A stretch of DNA of 32,688 nt from an uncultured Roseiflexus sp. GTDB lineage: Bacteria > Chloroflexota > Chloroflexia > Chloroflexales > Roseiflexaceae. Positions 18,402 to 30,322 of the stretch are shown one piece after another (position 1 is the stretch's first letter; every line of letters starts with the position of its first letter). Location: positions 1 to 32,688 of the forward strand of contig CALGYB010000045.1 of the NCBI GenBank assembly GCA_937935075.1. The letters run 5' to 3'. The translations under genes and the position numbers were made by a program. The notes under the pieces are model-generated. The model searched no databases. It was not told the DNA's origin and saw nothing but the letters and a program-made list of their open reading frames with translations.

Positions 18402-18485
18402 AACCACGAAGGTCGCCAAGGGACACACAGGAAATGCGCTTCATGGTTCTTCCCCTTCGTGCGCTTCGTGCCCTTTGTGGTTCAG
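18402..18485. repeat. Imperfect inverted repeat of the CTTCGTG..TTTGTGGTT type
   Basis: AACCACGAAGGTCGCCAAGG near 18402 and GTGCCCTTTGTGGTT near 18469-18483 can pair imperfectly. The segment between contains CTTCGTGCGCTTCGTG. This resembles a widespread intergenic repeat. It lies between the divergent kinase operon and the MNT/HEPN operon. Confidence 0.4.
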
Positions 18486-18581
18486 CCCTTTTGCAGTGGA
18501 CTCACCATTGAAAAGAACGAAATATTTACTCTTTTCGGGTACAATTTCGACGACAATCTCTTGGCTGCGAGGAGACTTTCG

Positions 18582-18944
18582 ATGAGTGTTGTGTTCTCGC
18601 TTCCCGCCGATGTTGCGCCGCGCGGTTTGCCGCCGGTGGCGGAGACGCTGCCGGCGGCTATCGAAAAGATCATCCGCGAGGTCAACCCGGAGAAGATCAT
18701 CCTCTTCGGTTCCTATGCCTATGGCAACCCCACGCCCGACAGCGATGTCGATCTGCTGATCATTTGGGATACGGACAAACCGCGTCGTGAGCGTGCGGTG
18801 ACCATCTCCCTGCTGTTGTACCCGCGTTTGTTTCCGGTGGATATTATTGTCAAAACGCCGCGCGAACTGGCGGAGGAAGCGCCGCATAACTTCTTTCTGC
18901 AAGAAATCCTGAGCAGAGGCATTGTAGTGTATGAGCGTCAATGA
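18582..18944 (+). CDS. MNT-type minimal nucleotidyltransferase, module 1
   Basis: This 120-residue protein has the nucleotidyltransferase signature GSYAYGNPTPDSDVDLLI (GS-x-G-x-SD-x-D) near residues 43-60, with a third acidic position likely in FPVDIIVKTP. The ATG at 18582 is preceded by GAGGAG. Such proteins pair with HEPN proteins; in studied examples the transferase acts as antitoxin by AMPylating the HEPN partner. The HEPN gene downstream overlaps by 14 bases. Residues 4-59 are almost identical to the second copy at 19323, while the C-terminal half diverges. It is the first gene of a four-gene overlapping operon. Confidence 0.9.
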   Translation: MSVVFSLPADVAPRGLPPVAETLPAAIEKIIREVNPEKIILFGSYAYGNPTPDSDVDLLIIWDTDKPRRERAVTISLLLYPRLFPVDIIVKTPRELAEEAPHNFFLQEILSRGIVVYERQ

Positions 18945-19326
18945 CCCGCTGGAATGGGCACGGTACGCCGAGCAGGACTGGCAGGTGGCGGCATCGCTGA
19001 TGCGACGTAAACATCCGCCAACGGTCGCTGTCTGCTTTCATGCTCAACAGAGCGCCGAGAAGTATTTGAAAGCCCTGCTTTTGCAAAAATCCATTGCATT
19101 TCCCAGAACGCACGACCTGCCGATGCTGAATACACTCTGTGAACAGGCGGGCATACAGACAGGCGTATCACCCGGACGGCTGACCATCCTTTCCGATTAC
19201 GCGGTAACCACGCGCTACCCCGGCGCCGAACCGTCGCCGGAGGAAGCCCGTGAAGCCATTGCCATCGCCAGAAACGTTCGCGCCTTCGCGCGCCGCCGGC
19301 TGGGGGTGAAGGGGGGCCGTCAATGA
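18931..19326 (+). CDS. HEPN-domain protein, module 1
   Basis: This 131-residue helical protein has the HEPN family core (AVCFHAQQSAEKYLKALLL...FPRTHDLPML) and the conserved C-terminal TRYPGAEPSPEEAREAI. The RNase-type R-x(4-6)-H motif of toxic HEPN proteins is not obvious, so ribonuclease activity should not be assumed. The start overlaps the end of the MNT gene by 14 bases and the stop overlaps the next MNT start (ATGA). The last 33 residues match module 2 nearly perfectly, in contrast to the N-terminal two thirds. Confidence 0.9.
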   Translation: MSVNDPLEWARYAEQDWQVAASLMRRKHPPTVAVCFHAQQSAEKYLKALLLQKSIAFPRTHDLPMLNTLCEQAGIQTGVSPGRLTILSDYAVTTRYPGAEPSPEEAREAIAIARNVRAFARRRLGVKGGRQ

Positions 19327-19688
19327 ACACTGTGTTCTCGCTTCCCGCCGATGTTGCGCCGCGCGGTTTGCCGCCGGTGGCGGAGACGCTGCCGGCTGCC
19401 ATCGAAAAACTCATCCGCGAGGTCAACCCGGAGAAGATCGTCCTCTTCGGTTCCTATGCCTATGGCAACCCCACGCCCGACAGCGATGTCGATCTGCTAG
19501 TGGTTGTCCGCACGGACGAACCGTATCGCCAGCGGTATCTGCGTGTGGCAAGGGCGCTGCAACCGCGTTTGTTCCCGCTTGACCTGATCGTCAAGACCCC
19601 TGAAGAGATCGAAGAGGCGCTCCGCACCTTCTCTCCCTTCCTGCGCGAGATTTATACGAAGGGGATCTGTCTGTATGAAAGAAAGTAA
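19323..19688 (+). CDS. MNT-type minimal nucleotidyltransferase, module 2
   Basis: This 121-residue duplicate of the first transferase keeps the motif GSYAYGNPTPDSDVDLLV. Nucleotides 19333-19498 match 18592-18757 with only a few differences, and then similarity falls abruptly (VVRTDEPYRQRYLRVARALQ against IWDTDKPRRERAVTISLLLY). Its own C-terminal half should pair with its own HEPN partner. The start is the ATGA overlap with HEPN module 1, so expression depends on the upstream module. Confidence 0.9.
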   Translation: MNTVFSLPADVAPRGLPPVAETLPAAIEKLIREVNPEKIVLFGSYAYGNPTPDSDVDLLVVVRTDEPYRQRYLRVARALQPRLFPLDLIVKTPEEIEEALRTFSPFLREIYTKGICLYERK

Positions 19689-20058
19689 TCCCCTGGATTG
19701 GGTCGCCAAGGCGGAAGGCGACCTCGACATGGCGCGACGCGCTATGCGCGGCAAGACTCAGCATACCGACGCTGCCGTCTTCCATGCCCAACAATGCGCT
19801 GAAAAATATCTCAAGGCGCTGCTGATCGCCGGAACGATCCCATTTCCCAAGACGCACGACCTGACGATCCTGCGTCATCTCTGCATCAGCAATGGCATCC
19901 CGGTCAATGTGGACGAACAGGCGCTTGATTTTCTCACCGGATTTGCGGTCAATGCGCGCTACCCCGGCGCCGAACCGTCGCCGGAGGAAGCCCGTGAAGC
20001 CATTGCCATCGCCAGAAACGTTCGCGTCTTCGCGCGCCGCCGGCTAGGGGTGAAATAA
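19675..20058 (+). CDS. HEPN-domain protein, module 2
   Basis: This 127-residue HEPN protein overlaps its MNT partner by 14 bases, as in module 1. The core reads AAVFHAQQCAEKYLKALLIAGTIPFPKTHDLTIL. The final 33 residues (RYPGAEPSPEEAREAIAIAR, then NVRVFARRRLGVK) differ from module 1 by one residue. The stop lies only 3 bases from the stop of the convergent uvrA gene, so no terminator fits between them and antisense overlap of the transcripts is likely. Confidence 0.9.
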   Translation: MKESNPLDWVAKAEGDLDMARRAMRGKTQHTDAAVFHAQQCAEKYLKALLIAGTIPFPKTHDLTILRHLCISNGIPVNVDEQALDFLTGFAVNARYPGAEPSPEEAREAIAIARNVRVFARRRLGVK

Positions 20059-23067: not shown

Positions 23068-23373
23068 CTACACGAACTTGTCGCCGCGCATCACCTGCAC
23101 GTCGGAAATATAGGCAATGACTGCGTAGTTGGGAAAATAATGATTTGCCATTGCATTCATAATGCGATCAGCAACATCGGATGAGACAAGCGTCTCAATC
23201 TTCACATTGCCGCCCCCCTGCCACTGGCCGGCATGGATCCCGCGCGTTCCCTCGCCATGCACCTCAGAAATCGTGTACCCCTGCGCGCCACACGCATGGA
23301 TCTCGTGGAGCAACCGATCTTTCAGCACCGGTTCGGCAATAATCGTCACCAGACGCACGGTTGTCAGTTTCAT
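23068..23373 (-). CDS. sbtB: PII-like protein SbtB, regulator of the bicarbonate permease
   Basis: This 101-residue protein has the PII fold pattern: strand 1 (MKLTTVRLVTIIAEPVLKD), a GYTISEVHGEG turn leading into a short T-loop (residues ~38-56, rich in Gly), and the final strand (NYAVIAYISDVQVMRGDKF). Cyanobacterial SbtB binds adenine nucleotides, including cAMP and AMP, and controls SbtA. The C-terminal CGPxGC redox loop of cyanobacterial SbtB is absent; the protein stops at RGDKFV. The start at 23373 has GGAG 6-7 bases upstream. It lies 35 bases after sbtA in the same operon, which supports the assignment. Confidence 0.88.
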   Translation of the reverse strand: MKLTTVRLVTIIAEPVLKDRLLHEIHACGAQGYTISEVHGEGTRGIHAGQWQGGGNVKIETLVSSDVADRIMNAMANHYFPNYAVIAYISDVQVMRGDKFV

Positions 23374-23408: not shown

Positions 23409-24407
23409 TCACATTCGTCCAAGCGCCGCACTCAGCCAGCGCGCATACTCATAATACAACGGCAAGCCAATGATGAGATTCATCGGCAGGGTAATGCCGA
23501 GCGATGATGTCAGATAGACGCTTGGATTCGCCTGCGGGAAGGTGGCGCGCACGGCGGCGGGAGCGTCGATATACGAAGCGCTGGCGGTTATGGCGCCAAG
23601 GATGAACGCGCCGTTCGGCGAGAGACCTGCCAGGAGACCGAGTGACACGCCAACAATGCCGTGGATCAGCGGCATCACCGTTCCGAAGACTGCCATAAAC
23701 GGACCGACCTTGACGAAATCGCGCAACTGCCGCCCGGCGAGCATGCCCATTTCGATCAGGAAGAAGACCAGCACCCCGCGGAAAAGGTCGCCATAGAGCG
23801 GCTTGATGCGCGCAAACCCCTGCTCGCCGATGATCACGCCGATCAGCAGCCCGCCGAGCAAGAGCACCACACTGCGCCCGGTGAGGGTATCACGGATGAC
23901 ACGACCGAGTTCACTATTCTGGCTCTGAGTCGCTCCCATGCGCCAGCGCCCGATGAAGAGCGCCACGATAATCCCCCATTCCATGAGCGCCGCCAGCGCC
24001 GGGATGAAGGCCTCGAAGGTGTTCTGTCCGTCCGGCAGGCGCTCGATGAACGAAATGCCGGCGACGAATGTCACCGACGAGACCGAACCGTAGTGCGCGG
24101 CAATGCCGGCGGCGTTGGGAATGTCGAACCTGCCGGGACCGCGCAGGATCAGGTAGCACCACGTCGGCACGGCAATCGCCAGCGCAATCGTGACCAGCGC
24201 GGGCAGCAGAAACTCGCTGAAGGTTGTGCCCGCCAGTTCGACTCCGCCATTCAAACCGATTGAGAAGAGCAGATAGACCGAAATGGCCTTGATGATCGGT
24301 TCGGGAATCTCGACTTCGCTCCTGATCAGGGTCGCTACAATCCCCAGCACAAACGCCAGCACGAGCGGCGACAACAGATTGCCGCGGATGATCTCAATCG
24401 TGTCCAT
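23409..24407 (-). CDS. sbtA: Sodium-dependent bicarbonate permease SbtA
   Basis: SbtA is a single-gene, Na+-coupled bicarbonate importer of the inner membrane. The 332-residue protein has about ten hydrophobic helices in two inverted halves: the first begins LLSPLVLAFVLGIVATLIRS and the second near SVVLLLGGLLIGVIIGEQGF. Family features include AISVYLLFSIGLNGGVELA and the ending AITASASYIDAPAAVRATFPQANPSVYLTSSLGITLPMNL, split here around the conserved SASYIDAPAA. The start at 24407 is preceded by GAGGGG. A promoter with TTGACA lies 64-69 bases upstream, and sbtB follows 35 bases downstream. The family is well defined, so the call is strong; Na+ dependence is inferred from the family. Confidence 0.93.
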   Translation of the reverse strand: MDTIEIIRGNLLSPLVLAFVLGIVATLIRSEVEIPEPIIKAISVYLLFSIGLNGGVELAGTTFSEFLLPALVTIALAIAVPTWCYLILRGPGRFDIPNAAGIAAHYGSVSSVTFVAGISFIERLPDGQNTFEAFIPALAALMEWGIIVALFIGRWRMGATQSQNSELGRVIRDTLTGRSVVLLLGGLLIGVIIGEQGFARIKPLYGDLFRGVLVFFLIEMGMLAGRQLRDFVKVGPFMAVFGTVMPLIHGIVGVSLGLLAGLSPNGAFILGAITASASYIDAPAAVRATFPQANPSVYLTSSLGITLPMNLIIGLPLYYEYARWLSAALGRM

Positions 24408-24447
24408 GTCCCCCTCAAAGATGTTCAAGGATATTATTGACACAAAA

Positions 24448-24505
24448 AAAGTATCAAATGGTTACATAATTGTCAATATAAAGATTTTTACGACACCAGA
24501 AGACT
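24448..24505 (-). promoter_or_regulatory. sbtA promoter with upstream element shared with dabB
   Basis: Read on the minus strand, -35 TTGACA (24476-24471), a 17-base spacer and a weak -10 TACTTT (24453-24448) lie ahead of sbtA. Directly upstream and overlapping the -35 is AGTCTTCTGGTGTCGTAA followed by AAATCTTTATATTGACA (24505-24471). It matches the dabB promoter element closely. An 8-bp inverted repeat (TATTGACA at 24435-24442, TGTCAATA at 24471-24478) brackets the -10 region. Confidence 0.72.
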
Positions 24506-24548: not shown

Positions 24549-25901
24549 TTAATCGACATCGCGGCGCAACATATATCCCTGGCCGCGCACAGCGATCAGT
24601 TTGCGGGGATGTTTGGGGTCGGGTTCGATTTTGTCGCGAATGCGTTCGACAATCTTCTGCAACGCGCTGTCGGAAGGCGGGGAAACGGGCCAGATGGCGC
24701 GCTTGACTTCATCGCGCGAGCAGACGCGCCCGGCGTGTTCGCGCAGGTACGCATAGACCTCGCCTTCGAGATGGGTGAAGGCAGGCGGCGCCGGGGGCGG
24801 CGGGAGCGACGTTTCGGCAGAGGGGATGCCCGGCTGATCCGCCAACGCCTGCGCGAAGATGGTCGAGGTGATCCGCCAGCCATTCCGGTCGCGCTGCGCC
24901 AGGCCGCGTTGGTGAAGCGCCTCGAAGATCGCGGCTTCGGCGGAGGTTGGCGCACGGTTCTGATCGAGCAACACCGCGCGCGCGTCGGTCGCCGTAGAGC
25001 GTGTTTCGGTCAATTCGCGCCACCAGGAACGGCAGAGCAGGCGCGCCTCTTCCATCGCGGCGCGTTCGACATCATCCGGGCTGCTGCCATTGGGGTGCAG
25101 CCGCCAGTCGTAGACGTGCGCCGCAGCAATCAGGAGCAGCGTCAGGTTCGCGCCGCCGAGCCGCCGGATCCAGGCGCGATCGGCGGCGCTCAACATCGGC
25201 GCACGCGCAAGCAGCGCAGCAATATCCGCATCGTCGAGCCTGCCGATGAACAGTTCGCTGGAGAATAGCCCCCAGAAAGACGATGGCTCGCGCAACTCAT
25301 CCTCCGGGTACAGTCGGCTCAATGGCGCGCCGGCAGTGACCACGTAAGCGACCCGTGCGCCAATAGCGGGGTCCTGGGTCAGCGAGCGCAGAAAACTGGC
25401 GGTGTGGCGCGGCAAACGAGCAATCCCCTCAACATTGTCGATCAGAAACACAAACGTGTGATCGTCGCGCCGCCGAATCATGTCCTCGACCACGCACTTG
25501 AGCGCATAGACCGCATCGACGATCGACGTTTCGGCAATGCCCTGATTCGGCAGCGCCGGGAGATCGTCGGGCAAGGCAAGCGCCTGCGCTGTGGCGCGCA
25601 CCAGGTCGCGCCAGAAATAGAGCGCGCCATGGCTCTGCGAAACGCCAAGATCGGCATACGGACCGGCATTGACATAGGGGAAGACACATCGCGCCGGAGT
25701 GTCGCCGCAGATGGGACGCCCCGGCGCTGTGCCGCGCAGATAGTAGAGCAGGGAGGTTTTTCCGCTCCGCGCATCGCCGATCACCGCACAACACTGCGGC
25801 GGCGCCGTCGTCAGGCGTTCGCAGATCGCAGCGATCAGATCGCATCGCCCGACGAACAACTCAGGATCGATGACCGGCTTGCGGTTGCTGAAAGGGTTCA
25901 T
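24549..25901 (-). CDS. AAA-ATPase / winged-helix transcriptional regulator, candidate Ci-uptake regulator
   Basis: This protein of about 450 residues fuses an N-terminal STAND/AAA-type ATPase to a C-terminal DNA-binding domain. The start MNPFSNRKPVIDPELFVGR is typical of this class. Walker A is GDARSGKT (residues ~42-49) and Walker B is FVFLIDN (~150-156). The last ~80 residues (GEVYAYLREHAGRVCSRDEV to VRGQGYML) are an OmpR/PhoB-type winged helix, including the final GxGY hairpin. There is no receiver domain, so it would respond to a ligand or partner bound by the ATPase. The ATG at 25901 is preferred; ATG 25925 and TTG 25934 are possible. It lies between dabA and sbtA on the same strand. Its target is inferred. 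Confidence 0.82.
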   Translation of the reverse strand: MNPFSNRKPVIDPELFVGRCDLIAAICERLTTAPPQCCAVIGDARSGKTSLLYYLRGTAPGRPICGDTPARCVFPYVNAGPYADLGVSQSHGALYFWRDLVRATAQALALPDDLPALPNQGIAETSIVDAVYALKCVVEDMIRRRDDHTFVFLIDNVEGIARLPRHTASFLRSLTQDPAIGARVAYVVTAGAPLSRLYPEDELREPSSFWGLFSSELFIGRLDDADIAALLARAPMLSAADRAWIRRLGGANLTLLLIAAAHVYDWRLHPNGSSPDDVERAAMEEARLLCRSWWRELTETRSTATDARAVLLDQNRAPTSAEAAIFEALHQRGLAQRDRNGWRITSTIFAQALADQPGIPSAETSLPPPPAPPAFTHLEGEVYAYLREHAGRVCSRDEVKRAIWPVSPPSDSALQKIVERIRDKIEPDPKHPRKLIAVRGQGYMLRRDVD

Positions 25902-25936
25902 AGGCTCGCCTGCGTTCAGCGACATTGCTGACAATA

Positions 25937-25982
25937 ACTATACCACACTACGCAGCGGCTTGTCGATATATCGATGTCAGCA
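25937..25982 (-). promoter_or_regulatory. Promoter and palindromes upstream of the regulator gene
   Basis: On the minus strand an extended -10 TGGTATAGT (-10 box 25942-25937) lies 18 bases after TCGACA (25966-25961). The -35 overlaps a perfect palindrome TCGATATATCGA (25963-25974). An 8-bp inverted repeat TGCTGACA (25926-25933) / TGTCAGCA (25975-25982) brackets the whole promoter. This suits autoregulation or control by another factor. Confidence 0.5.
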
Positions 25983-26084: not shown

Positions 26085-28607
26085 TCAGCACGCTTCCCAG
26101 CGCAACCCGCCGACGTATTGGCGCGTCACCTTGCCATCTTCGCCGATGGCAAACAGGCGGAGCCAGCCATTGTCGAGCAACTGCCGCACCTGCTCGTGCC
26201 TGGCGATGATTGCGGTCATAGCATCGATCGGGGCTTCGATCATCACGTGCAGGCGCATCGGTTCATGCACATACGTTTCGCCGTCATGAACCGACTGCCA
26301 CGGCAGCCCGATGCGCAGATCGCCGGAATTGCCCTCCAGCACGCCGAGCGTGCCAACCACGTTGTGCAGCGTCTTGTTGCCGCTGCCGAAGACCCGATTA
26401 TCGACAGTTGAACCATAGTATTGCAGATTGATCCAACTCGCCACGATCATCGGCGCGATCATAATGAGTTCCAGCACGCCAAAGCCGTCGTCCTGGCGCC
26501 AGTCGTAGTTGTGGAGGAATGTGCGGCCATCGAGCTTCACCCCGGCGGTGCGCTCGCGTGGCGCGGCAATGAATGCGGCACACCCTGCCAACCCCCACTC
26601 TGGACGCACTTGCGACCAGTCTTTGCTCCGTTGACGCACTGCCTGGTCAATGTCGGCGCCGGCGTCGATCTTCAGCAGCGCCGCCCGCTCGGCGCGCGCA
26701 AGCCGTCCGGCAGCGGCCAGGTCCGCTTCTAGCCGTCTGAGATCGTCGGCATGGCTTGTGGGAACGTCGGCTTTGTCCAAAATCGCCACATCATCGGTGG
26801 TCGTGTCGTGCAGGCCGGCTAGAAACACCGTATCATCGGGAATGCGGATCCCGCGCTCACGCAGGACGACCCGCACCGCCGGATTATTGAGAATCTGCAC
26901 CGCCACCCGCACGTTCGCTTCGCCGGTGTGACCACCACACGCGCCACAATCGAGACCGGTTGCGTGCGGATTGTTGACGGTGGTCGAGCCGTGGCCAGCC
27001 AGCAGCACGAGGCGGGCAAAGTCGCCGGTCAGCGACATCGCCTTGAGCGCGCCTTCAGCAGCAGCGATCTGTTGATCGAGTGACATGCCAAACCGGCGGC
27101 CATTGATCGTGCGTGGTTCGAGACTCGGCTTGACCTGCGCGCGGGTCGCCGCATCGAGGCCGAAGGTCGCCGGGTGTGGCACCGGGCGGGTGATGCCGAG
27201 CGTATCGAGCAGCAATTTGCGCACGTAAGCCAACCCGACCGGACCGACAAAACCGAAGCACGAGACCGGACCGAACTTGAACATCCGCCATGCTTTCGCC
27301 ACGCGCTGGTTCATCGCTCGCCTGGCAATGGCGGCTTCGACTTCAGCCGTTGCTTTGCCATTGACGGACTCGGCAATGACAAACTGCGGCGTCAGCAAGA
27401 CCGGACACTGCGCGCCGCCGCGAGTCTCAGCCAGCGGCACATACTCGATCGGGAAACCGAAAAAGCCGGCAAACCCGATTGTCTCAACCTCGCCGGTCAC
27501 TGTTTCAAGCGCGCGACGGAAGATTTCTGATCGCACATCGATACAGAACGCAGCCTGTACCCGTTTGCGGGCGGCGATAGGCGCCGGTGTGCGCGTATCA
27601 AGGCGAGCAAACAACTGGCGCCGGTATGCATACTCGAAGGCGCGTTGCAGCAAGAGATCGCCGCCAAGCGCCTGCCTAGCCGCTTCGCCTATCTGATCGT
27701 TGCTCAATTCCCCCTTCTGCTGCTGCCAGGCCTCGGTCAACCCCTTGTGCGCAAAACTGCGCCAGAGCGCCACTTCCCACACCAGCCGGATCGCCAGCAG
27801 ATCGGTCAGGGTCTGGTCTTCACCGCCATAGAGTTCAGCATTCCAGCGCAGGTAGCGGGCATAGCCAGCCCAGCCGTGAATAGTCAACAGAAGCCGGTGC
27901 AGGTACGCCTCGATCCCGTCGGCAGGAACGTTCAACATCGTTACCGCAGCGACAATCGTTTCCATCGCCGACTCCGGCAGTTCGCGCAGCGCCTGGCGCA
28001 AACCGTGCGCACCGCGAATCTGCGGGGTTTGATCGTGCGCCGCCTCAGCCCGCCACGCAGCATACGCAGGCAGATCAGCCCACGGCGACCGCCAATACGA
28101 CTGACCCAGGTCGAAGTAGGCGCCAGCCCACGTCGAGATCGATTCGGTCACAATGTCGGCCCAGTTGACACCAGTCATCTTACGCGCAACATCGGCGACG
28201 GTGGGCAGCGACGTAAGCGCCGGTTCGGGCGCATCGCTCAGCGCGAACGCCTTGAGCGCTTCGACACTCGCCGGAGCGCCGGGGAACGGGATACCTTCCG
28301 CTAGAGCCGCTGCAAGGTCAGCATCGGTCACGCGACCGCTCGTGATCGCCTGTGCATAGAAGGAGCGCGGCGCGGTCATCCTGGCGCCTGCCCGGCGCGC
28401 CAGCAGTTCGGCAGCCGTCTCGAAAGAGTGGTCGAGCAATCCCAGATACGGATTGACCGCCACAAAATAGCGCAGGGGCCACAGGGGAGCGATGCGTTGT
28501 TCGGCGCGCTTCACTGCTGCTGCAATCACATCGGCGGCAGGAACATGCATCGGTGCAACCATCATCGGCGCAGGTTGGGTCCGGGTATCAGCCAGGTGCG
28601 GATTCAT
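26085..28607 (-). CDS. dabA: DabA, catalytic-like subunit of the DAB inorganic-carbon pump (DUF2309/UPF0753)
   Basis: DabA is a large cytoplasmic protein with a carbonic-anhydrase-like zinc site. With DabB it drives one-way conversion of CO2 to bicarbonate. The 840-residue protein has the expected ligands and spacing: Cys355 and Asp357 in FCIDVRSE, and His539 and Cys554 in GHGSTTVNNPHATGLDCGAC. The His-to-Cys distance of 15 matches the published Halothiobacillus protein (H524/C539). The C-terminal part has LELIMIAPMIVASWINLQYYGS, a conserved family segment. GGAGGAAG precedes the ATG at 28607. It starts 33 bases after dabB, so the operon is dabB-dabA. Length and motifs indicate an intact protein. 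Confidence 0.94.
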   Translation of the reverse strand: MNPHLADTRTQPAPMMVAPMHVPAADVIAAAVKRAEQRIAPLWPLRYFVAVNPYLGLLDHSFETAAELLARRAGARMTAPRSFYAQAITSGRVTDADLAAALAEGIPFPGAPASVEALKAFALSDAPEPALTSLPTVADVARKMTGVNWADIVTESISTWAGAYFDLGQSYWRSPWADLPAYAAWRAEAAHDQTPQIRGAHGLRQALRELPESAMETIVAAVTMLNVPADGIEAYLHRLLLTIHGWAGYARYLRWNAELYGGEDQTLTDLLAIRLVWEVALWRSFAHKGLTEAWQQQKGELSNDQIGEAARQALGGDLLLQRAFEYAYRRQLFARLDTRTPAPIAARKRVQAAFCIDVRSEIFRRALETVTGEVETIGFAGFFGFPIEYVPLAETRGGAQCPVLLTPQFVIAESVNGKATAEVEAAIARRAMNQRVAKAWRMFKFGPVSCFGFVGPVGLAYVRKLLLDTLGITRPVPHPATFGLDAATRAQVKPSLEPRTINGRRFGMSLDQQIAAAEGALKAMSLTGDFARLVLLAGHGSTTVNNPHATGLDCGACGGHTGEANVRVAVQILNNPAVRVVLRERGIRIPDDTVFLAGLHDTTTDDVAILDKADVPTSHADDLRRLEADLAAAGRLARAERAALLKIDAGADIDQAVRQRSKDWSQVRPEWGLAGCAAFIAAPRERTAGVKLDGRTFLHNYDWRQDDGFGVLELIMIAPMIVASWINLQYYGSTVDNRVFGSGNKTLHNVVGTLGVLEGNSGDLRIGLPWQSVHDGETYVHEPMRLHVMIEAPIDAMTAIIARHEQVRQLLDNGWLRLFAIGEDGKVTRQYVGGLRWEAC

Positions 28608-28640: not shown

Positions 28641-30227
28641 TCAGCGAGCCAGCCGGAATGTATCAAGGAACCGGTCAAACAGCGTATTGGCGTAAAAGCC
28701 GTTCTTGAGATGAACATAGAGCGCGCGCCACGCAGGGCGGTTCACCAGCGCAGGCAGAAAGGCGCTGAGCGCCATCACCAGACCGTGGACGACGACTGCC
28801 GTCACGGCTGCAATCAGCGCTGGCATAGTGAGCGGCGGATAGACGGCCACCGCCTGTCCGAGCAGCGCCTCAGCCGTCACCTCCAGAGCAAAGAATGCGA
28901 TCGTCACCAGCGCAGCCATCAGCATGGTGCGACCGATCACCGAGACAGGCGCTTTATTGGTATTGCCCTTTACCAGCAAATAGGCGACAGCAAGCATAAA
29001 GATCGCAATCATCGCCGTTTCACCCGGTCGCTTGGTCATATCGATCCCGATGGCAGTCGCCACTGCCGCGAATATTGCTACTGCAACCGCCATATTCGTC
29101 AGCAAAGCCAGCGGATGCGGCGCCTGATCGAGCTTCTGCGCGCCGGTGTTGCGCACATACTCGATAATGCTGCCCGACGAGAGAAAAGCGTGCGCCTTAT
29201 AGCAGGAATGAGCGATGAGGTGCATGATTGCGACGGTATGTGCGCCAAACCCGCACAACATCAGCATGAAACCCATATGCGCCGCGCTCGAATATGCCAG
29301 CGAGACTTTGACACTGGTCTGGGCAATCATCGCAGACGAGGCGAACAGCGCGGTACAACCGCCAAGCGCGATCAGCAGAATCAGCGCCGGGGTTGACAGG
29401 AACACCAGTTCGCCGAAGCGCACCACCAGAAAGATGCCGGCATTGAGCAAACCGGCGTGCAGCAGCGCCGATACCGGCGTCGGCGTCTCCATCACCTCGA
29501 TCAGCCAGCCGTGGAAAGGGAACATCGCCGATTTCAGCGCCGCCACAATCACAATCAGGATCGCCGCAGTCGCAGCTTCGGCGGGGACGTTGCCATCCGC
29601 AAGCGCCGCCGCAACTGCCGCGCGGATCATGCCCAGATCGGTTGTGCCAAACGCCTGCGCGATCAACACGGCGGCGACAATCAAACACACATCGCCGATA
29701 CGGGCGGTAATGAATTTCTTGCGGGCAGCCCGGATCGCCCGCGGGCGATCCGGGTAGAATACCAGGAGTTCGTGCAGCGCAAGGCTCATCGCAATCCACG
29801 CCAGGACGAGTTGCCAGAGATTACCGGCCAGCACCATCCACAGCACGGCGCCGCTCGTTATGTAGAGGCGGATGAAAAAGAGTTTCTGGCGCGGGTCGCC
29901 ATCGAGATAGTTGCGACTGAACTGGATCAGCAATGCGCCCAGCAACGTCACCAGCCACGACATCATAACGCTCAGCGCATCGAGGCGCAGCGCAATGCCC
30001 GCCTCGCCAACACCGATCAGCGGGCTGACCATTGGACCAGACGTAAAGACCACGATCCCAAGCACAAACAACAGCAAGAACGCCCCCACGCTCACAGCGC
30101 GTCCAAGGTGAAACGTCAGGTCAACCGACCGTACCAGGTTGAGTGCGGCCATGAGCGCCACGACGGTCAGTGACAACGGCGCCAGATATCCGAGAAGCGC
30201 CAGATTGCCAACCACAACTCCATCCAT
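28641..30227 (-). CDS. dabB: DabB, NuoL/MrpA-like membrane subunit of the DAB inorganic-carbon pump
   Basis: DabB is a proton-channel-like membrane subunit of the proton-antiporter M family, which lends ion-motive force to DabA. The 528-residue protein has about 13 or more transmembrane segments. The core motif AALKSAMFPFHGWLIEVMETPTPVSALLHAG carries the Lys and HGWL features of NuoL/M/N homologues. The later HSCYKAHAFLSSGSIIE is also typical. Being adjacent to dabA and lacking other nuo or mrp genes identifies it as DabB, not a complex I subunit. The start has GGAGGG about 8 bases upstream. The promoter at 30266-30322 carries the element shared with sbtA. Confidence 0.92.
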   Translation of the reverse strand: MDGVVVGNLALLGYLAPLSLTVVALMAALNLVRSVDLTFHLGRAVSVGAFLLLFVLGIVVFTSGPMVSPLIGVGEAGIALRLDALSVMMSWLVTLLGALLIQFSRNYLDGDPRQKLFFIRLYITSGAVLWMVLAGNLWQLVLAWIAMSLALHELLVFYPDRPRAIRAARKKFITARIGDVCLIVAAVLIAQAFGTTDLGMIRAAVAAALADGNVPAEAATAAILIVIVAALKSAMFPFHGWLIEVMETPTPVSALLHAGLLNAGIFLVVRFGELVFLSTPALILLIALGGCTALFASSAMIAQTSVKVSLAYSSAAHMGFMLMLCGFGAHTVAIMHLIAHSCYKAHAFLSSGSIIEYVRNTGAQKLDQAPHPLALLTNMAVAVAIFAAVATAIGIDMTKRPGETAMIAIFMLAVAYLLVKGNTNKAPVSVIGRTMLMAALVTIAFFALEVTAEALLGQAVAVYPPLTMPALIAAVTAVVVHGLVMALSAFLPALVNRPAWRALYVHLKNGFYANTLFDRFLDTFRLAR

Positions 30228-30265: not shown

Positions 30266-30322
30266 AGAATATCTGAAATTGTCGATAAAGTCAATATAAA
30301 GATATTACGACATCAAAAGACT
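30266..30322 (-). promoter_or_regulatory. dabBA promoter with upstream element shared with sbtA
   Basis: On the minus strand -35 TTGACT (30294-30289), a 17-base spacer and -10 TATTCT (30271-30266) lie ahead of dabB. The upstream element AGTCTTTTGATGTCGTAA followed by TATCTTTATATTGACT (30322-30289) differs from the sbtA element by four substitutions and one missing base. GTC recurs at 10-base spacing (AGTCTT, TGTCGT), which would suit an OmpR-type winged helix binding direct repeats. Confidence 0.75.

Follow-up and report, generated by a model that had tools for sequence, protein, structure and literature searches.

In cyanobacteria and autotrophs, sbtA or other genes of inorganic carbon (Ci) uptake and CO2 fixation are controlled by the LysR-type proteins CcmR/NdhR, CmpR and CbbR, and by Sll0822, which is AbrB-type (PMC3401165). 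In Synechocystis, CcmR represses sbtA, and this repression is relieved at low Ci (PMC3401165). The original prediction for the locus described here held that known Ci regulators are mostly LysR-type: the LysR members stand, but the AbrB-type Sll0822 was missing. Roseiflexus in hot-spring mats takes up bicarbonate during daytime photomixotrophy (PMC12542760), and no regulator of its DabA/SbtA or of its Ci uptake was found in the open literature searched.

The protein encoded between dabA and sbtA in Roseiflexus (the regulator) is unrelated to CcmR/NdhR, CmpR, CbbR and Sll0822 in both protein family and operator. STAND ATPases with OmpR-type domains are already known; their application to Ci uptake is unreported in the literature searched. 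MalT and GutR (STAND regulators) are likewise one-component ATPases, whose switch is probably operated by ligand and nucleotide. MalT binds repeated sites. Its DNA-binding domain is of the LuxR type and its sensor is a large TPR domain, whereas the regulator has a winged helix of the OmpR type and shows no evident sensor repeats. In AfsR/SARP of Streptomyces, a STAND ATPase and an OmpR-type DNA-binding domain are combined in one chain, AfsR reads direct repeats, and ATP binding relieves its autoinhibition (PMC10936776). However, the winged helix of AfsR is N-terminal and followed by a BTA domain, and its sensor is a TPR domain, whereas the regulator has a C-terminal winged helix and, as predicted here, carbon-uptake targets. 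Neither a BTA nor a TPR domain was matched in the regulator by Pfam, and its classification as a SARP was rejected, as it lacks the BTA domain and has the winged helix at the opposite end. The closest winged-helix matches, in sequence and in fold, are those of WalR/YycF/VicR and KdpE, the last of which reads AT-rich 6-bp direct repeats (PMC3264566). These proteins have a phospho-receiver where the regulator has an ATPase, and the recognition helix of the regulator (SDSALQKxxERIR) is unusual.

The locus and the regulator protein

The window (the whole stretch of DNA that was analysed, 32,688 nucleotides) is a contig of G000, a Roseiflexus genome of 4.85 Mb. Its dab-sbt cluster is transcribed in the order dabB, dabA, regulator, sbtA, PII-like sbtB, and then uvrA, all on the (-) strand:

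28641..30227, (-) strand: dabB, NuoL/Mrp-type membrane subunit of the DAB uptake system (PF00361, 143 bits)
26085..28607, (-) strand: dabA, inorganic-carbon uptake subunit (PF10070, 934.5 bits)
ATG at 25901 to stop at 24549 (coding 24552-25901), (-) strand: regulator, an ORF of 450 amino acids (ORF and Pfam)
23409..24407, (-) strand: sbtA, a member of the Na+/bicarbonate transporter family and the gene next downstream of the regulator (PF05982, 346 bits)
23068..23373, (-) strand: sbtB-like PII protein (PF00543, 80 bits)

The regulator thus lies between dabA and sbtA in the same reading direction as its neighbours dabB-dabA and sbtA-sbtB, as had been claimed, and the claim that it is the sole regulator in the Ci island holds for the dab-sbt cluster. 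A diverged second sbtA, about 54% identical, lies elsewhere in the genome (G000:C88:11735-12643) without regulator or array, as it does in most related genomes. Window positions 18480-20058 carry two tandem pairs of small genes, nucleotidyltransferase-like and HEPN-like (MNT/HEPN toxin-antitoxin type), and the near-identical N-termini of their nucleotidyltransferases suggest a recent duplication.

The regulator comprises three parts:

residues 1-355: P-loop ATPase, consisting of NBD, helical and winged-helix regions, with an archaeal ATPase_2/ORC/STAND-like fold
residues about 356-372: Pro-rich linker, of low confidence in the model
residues 373-447: C-terminal OmpR-type winged helix

The C-terminal domain belongs to the OmpR/PhoB type, as Trans_reg_C (PF00486) matches residues 375-445 with 50 bits against a cut-off of 26.2. 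No receiver domain (PF00072) was matched by Pfam; the N-terminus is instead a P-loop ATPase, with Walker A GDARSGKT and a Walker B-like FLIDNVE, the core residues of which are kept in 13 homologues. Because it lacks a receiver, the regulator is not a two-component response regulator, and because Pfam found neither the LysR HTH nor the LysR substrate-binding domain, it is not LysR-type. The description in the original prediction (a receiver-less ATPase with a C-terminal OmpR-type winged helix) is borne out by the ORF, Pfam, the Walker motifs and the fold.

A structure model built on 13 sequences (pLDDT 82) supersedes one built on 8 (pLDDT 68). In this model, the best fold match of residues 3-355 is the archaeal Walker-type ATPase 2qen (Z 18.8, rmsd 5.3 Å, 309 aligned), further matches of the ATPase (residues 3-360) are ORC/Cdc6, and CED-4 and NLR cores (Z 13-15), and the predicted C-terminus resembles the DNA-binding domains of VicR/YycF (rmsd 1.2-1.6 Å). 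A P-loop NBD with Walker A and B motifs plus a winged-helix domain, the combination by which STAND proteins are recognised, is found in the sequence and predicted fold of the regulator. In the window copy, AAA_16 is below the Pfam cut-off and nSTAND1 scores 23.9 bits (cut-off 27.1); nSTAND1 scores 28.9 bits in the orthologue L096, and each of the two families is above its cut-off in an orthologue. Pfam matched no sensor repeats (TPR, WD40 and similar), only the linker and the winged helix following residue 355, and the helical middle of the protein may hold a sensor. By its modelled fold, the regulator is STAND-like; it is so termed, rather than called a STAND member, because it has no evident sensor repeats and the window copy is just below the Pfam STAND cut-off. 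That it could be an anti-phage STAND (Avs-like) defence protein was rejected, as PADLOC gave no match.

Linkage of the regulator to Ci-uptake genes

Genomes were searched with a profile made from eight orthologues; the search covered 158 from the class and 400 from the phylum. Orthologues of at least 43% identity are present in ten genomes, several of them fragmented MAGs: seven of Roseiflexaceae and three of another family (43-45%). Every one of the ten adjoins bicarbonate-uptake genes (dabBA, sbtAB or both); the loci fall into three gene arrangements and belong to two families. The original prediction counted homologues away from Ci genes against itself, and on this point the survey upheld it. 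The order dabB-dabA-regulator is kept in all seven Roseiflexaceae genomes, which represent one lineage, so that their counts are not independent and independent weight comes from the three arrangements and the two families. It is followed there by sbtA-sbtB-uvrA, with an sbtA gene in six genomes and a remnant in G009, i.e., 57 C-terminal codons between regulator and sbtB (L040 10714-10884). In G051 and G071, of the other family, dabB-dabA-regulator is again found, with dab genes that share only about 40% identity with the Roseiflexus ones; in G068, of the same family, the regulator is divergent from sbtA-sbtB and no dab genes adjoin it. Thus, as the three arrangements demonstrate, the partner genes vary but the regulator is still found with Ci uptake. 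Conversely, the transporters are widespread without the regulator (dabA in 24 of 60 relatives, sbtA in 41 of 158 class genomes).

Between the two families, identity is 71-75% in the winged helix but 45-51% in the ATPase and 26-27% in the middle region, as would be expected if the DNA site had been held constant. Three distant homologues from other Chloroflexota (L098, L099, L100) have the same architecture and are 27-34% identical over the alignment; they form a separate branch and are located elsewhere, beside a RelA/SpoT-like HD-TGS-AAA protein where scanned, and dab/sbt genes are not nearby. SbtB is unlikely to be an obligate co-regulator, as G051 and G071 have no sbtB beside the regulator. 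G003 is a complete Roseiflexus genome; its regulator-linked sbtA is frameshifted near codon 86 (L038 6959-7956 (-); G003:C1:4809988-4810913), by either decay or sequencing error, and the second sbtA, at C1:2466134, is intact.

Direct-repeat arrays in the dabB and sbtA promoters

The promoters of dabB and sbtA had been said to share an element of direct-repeat character. Such an element exists: TCTTTATATTGAC has exactly two copies in the whole 4.85-Mb genome, one before sbtA and the other before dabB, and the repeats are to be seen on the other strand, where it is part of an AAAGAY-like direct-repeat array. In the arrays, copies of the 6-bp unit AAAGAY follow one another head to tail, one per 8-11 bp; the spacing varies within this range, and some Roseiflexus units are weak. 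The features in the window are as follows:

24472-24484 (before sbtA) and 30290-30302 (before dabB): shared element TCTTTATATTGAC, the opposite strand of which starts an array
30298..30321, (+) strand: dabB array AAAGATATTACGACATCAAAAGAC, directly upstream of the dabB -35
30266..30294, (-) strand: dabB core promoter, TTGACT-17-TATTCT
24480..24504, (+) strand: sbtA array 1, AAAGATTTTTACGACACCAGAAGAC, directly upstream of the sbtA -35
24448..24476, (-) strand: proposed sbtA core promoter, TTGACA-17-TACTTT, from alignment with five other genomes
24417..24441, (+) strand: sbtA array 2, AAAGAT-N4-AAGGAT-N4-TTGAC, with exact 10/10 spacing, roughly from +1 to the ribosome-binding site
25937..25966, (-) strand: regulator gene promoter, TCGACA-18-TATAGT

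The proposed sbtA core promoter was not reported by a consensus promoter scan. That the shared element might be a palindrome (at dabB, ATGTC-N8-GACAT) was rejected, as the palindrome is lost at sbtA, where the direct repeats are retained. In all six Roseiflexus genomes, array 2 lies between the sbtA -10 and the ribosome-binding site as AAAGAY-N4-ARRGAY-N4-NNGAC, with 10/10 spacing and varying linkers; it is unique genome-wide in five of the six and has one extra match in G005. It was not found anywhere in the genome of G009, which has lost sbtA. Both sbtA arrays are missing from G009 and its dabB array is retained, which amounts to a natural deletion. The sbtA array of G004 reads AAAGAT-N3-AGAGAT-N4-AAAGAC. 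In the other family, the dabB array of G051 reads AAAGAT-N4-AAGGAT-N4-AAAGAT-N4-AAAGAC (spacing 10-10-10), the array of G071 retains the four units with changes at linker and pyrimidine positions, and that of G068, between sbtA and the regulator, has four units spaced 10-11-10. The arrays of G051, G071 and G068 overlap or follow a near-consensus TTGACA-17/18-TATAAW promoter, and their orientation relative to the promoter is opposite to that in Roseiflexus.

A unit matrix was derived from 12 units of the G051, G068 and G071 arrays, without Roseiflexus input, and was scanned over both strands of loci from Roseiflexaceae and of Chloroflexota loci without the regulator, 411 kb in all; hits in the AT-rich L098 locus, outside these 411 kb, were set aside. 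The top matches are the upstream regions of Roseiflexus sbtA and dabB, and the eight best distinct sites before the first unrelated one are all upstream of sbtA/dabB in Roseiflexaceae. Scores of 17.7-24.3 were obtained for 11 of the 13 regulator-linked Roseiflexaceae promoters, the exceptions being dabB of G001 (10.4) and of G003 (11.4), where the element is further upstream and the third unit is lost. By comparison, the regulator-free promoters at 43 loci (13 dabB and 30 sbtA, including the second sbtA of G000-G004, G009, G051, G068 and G071) score at most 14.5, and no arrays were found in them; a rank test between the two sets gives p of about 2e-7, which is indicative only, since the loci are related by descent. 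Searched genome-wide, a four-unit pattern matches G051, G068 and G071 once each, always at the Ci locus; since the pattern was defined by these arrays, only its uniqueness is tested there. In the genomes of 12 regulator-free relatives it has no match. Thus, the direct-repeat element is present in three lineages, and it tracks the regulator, not merely the transporter. A regulon extending beyond dab/sbt was considered and rejected: the one other match in G000 (C40:18621) is at the level of the reversed-pattern control and near an unrelated membrane-protein gene.

An AAAGAY array was looked for in front of the regulator gene and not found, and autoregulation via such an array was rejected. After the regulator promoter, TTATTGTCAGCAATGTCGC is conserved in the seven Roseiflexaceae genomes, with a few bases differing in one. 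The stretch past the regulator -10, TATAGTTATTGTCAGCAATGTCGC (window 25913-25942 and the L036-L041 equivalents), is nearly invariant in the seven genomes; on the other strand it has GAC(A) pairs 9 bp apart, a possible weak autoregulatory site.

Proposed control and its alternatives

The regulator is proposed to be a dedicated one-component transcription regulator of Ci uptake. Its C-terminal winged helices would bind head to tail along the AAAGAY arrays at the dabB and sbtA promoters, and its N-terminal STAND/ORC-like ATPase would set assembly or activity by its nucleotide state rather than by phosphorylation of a receiver, much as ATP binding is the switch of MalT and AfsR (PMC10936776). The input to the ATPase may be a signal or ligand of carbon or energy status, such that transcription would be repressed when Ci is plentiful and released when it is scarce. 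Judged from sequence, the probability that the regulator controls dabB and sbtA through the arrays, whatever the sign, is about 0.8, and Ci uptake in these bacteria is very probably controlled by a protein that has no relation to the known LysR-type regulators. The original prediction, if read as naming a candidate regulator of Ci-uptake genes, is well supported by the linkage and by the arrays that track the regulator.

A gene that simply travelled with the Ci island, playing no part in its control, would also account for linkage, given that most of the ten loci are from one family with synteny conserved out to uvrA. This is very improbable, as the regulator stays while its partners differ (dab genes of two clades, or only a divergently oriented sbtAB), and as its best conserved part is the DNA-binding domain. 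There is a slim chance that some other response regulator of the OmpR family reads the arrays and that the linked protein has a different role: direct repeats are the usual target of that family, and Roseiflexus encodes at least nine further OmpR-type winged helices. None of these is more than 38% identical to that of the regulator over the domain, however, and arrays are found only where the regulator is encoded beside the transporter, the regulator-free dab/sbtA loci, including second sbtA copies of the same genomes, being without them.

With regard to the sign of control, repression by the regulator has somewhat better than even chances on the promoter sequences. It is favoured because in three of four promoter types the array covers the -10 region or the transcription start: array 2 of sbtA is over the transcription start, and the arrays of G051, G071 and G068 overlap or follow near-consensus promoters. 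That the same protein, at the same sites, would instead be an activator at low carbon, recruiting RNA polymerase from upstream of the -35 as do KdpE and MalT, is possible but doubtful. The dabB array and sbtA array 1 of Roseiflexus do abut the upstream side of the -35, and MalT and AfsR, two characterised STAND regulators, activate transcription and are themselves switched by binding ATP (PMC10936776); against this, the position of array 2 is ill-suited to activation, and the near-consensus promoters of G051, G071 and G068 should need no activator. The opposite array orientations in Roseiflexus and in G051/G068/G071 are awkward for a single geometry of either activation or repression, and a mixed mode is unlikely.

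In its fullest form, the proposal is that one ATPase-winged-helix switch is dedicated to the unrelated DAB and SbtAB systems in phototrophic Chloroflexota, acts via AAAGAY arrays and senses the status of carbon or energy with its NBD, as a third kind of Ci control besides LysR and AbrB; all of this together may be given roughly even odds. If true, DAB and SbtA systems, which are under LysR- or AbrB-type control where studied, would have moved under an ATPase-type switch, and energy or nucleotide state would be a plausible input to Ci uptake. A dedicated regulator with defined, predicted operator sites offers a concrete handle, as the sites predict which genes are controlled and direct tests are simple.

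AAAGAY-type repeats are also present at L098 (12728-12977), between the operon and a divergent sigma-factor-like gene, and none of 100 shuffles was as good. The distant homologue there, in an operon with the RelA/SpoT-like HD-TGS-AAA protein, has a nearly identical recognition helix, and its DNA site may be the same as AAAGAY.
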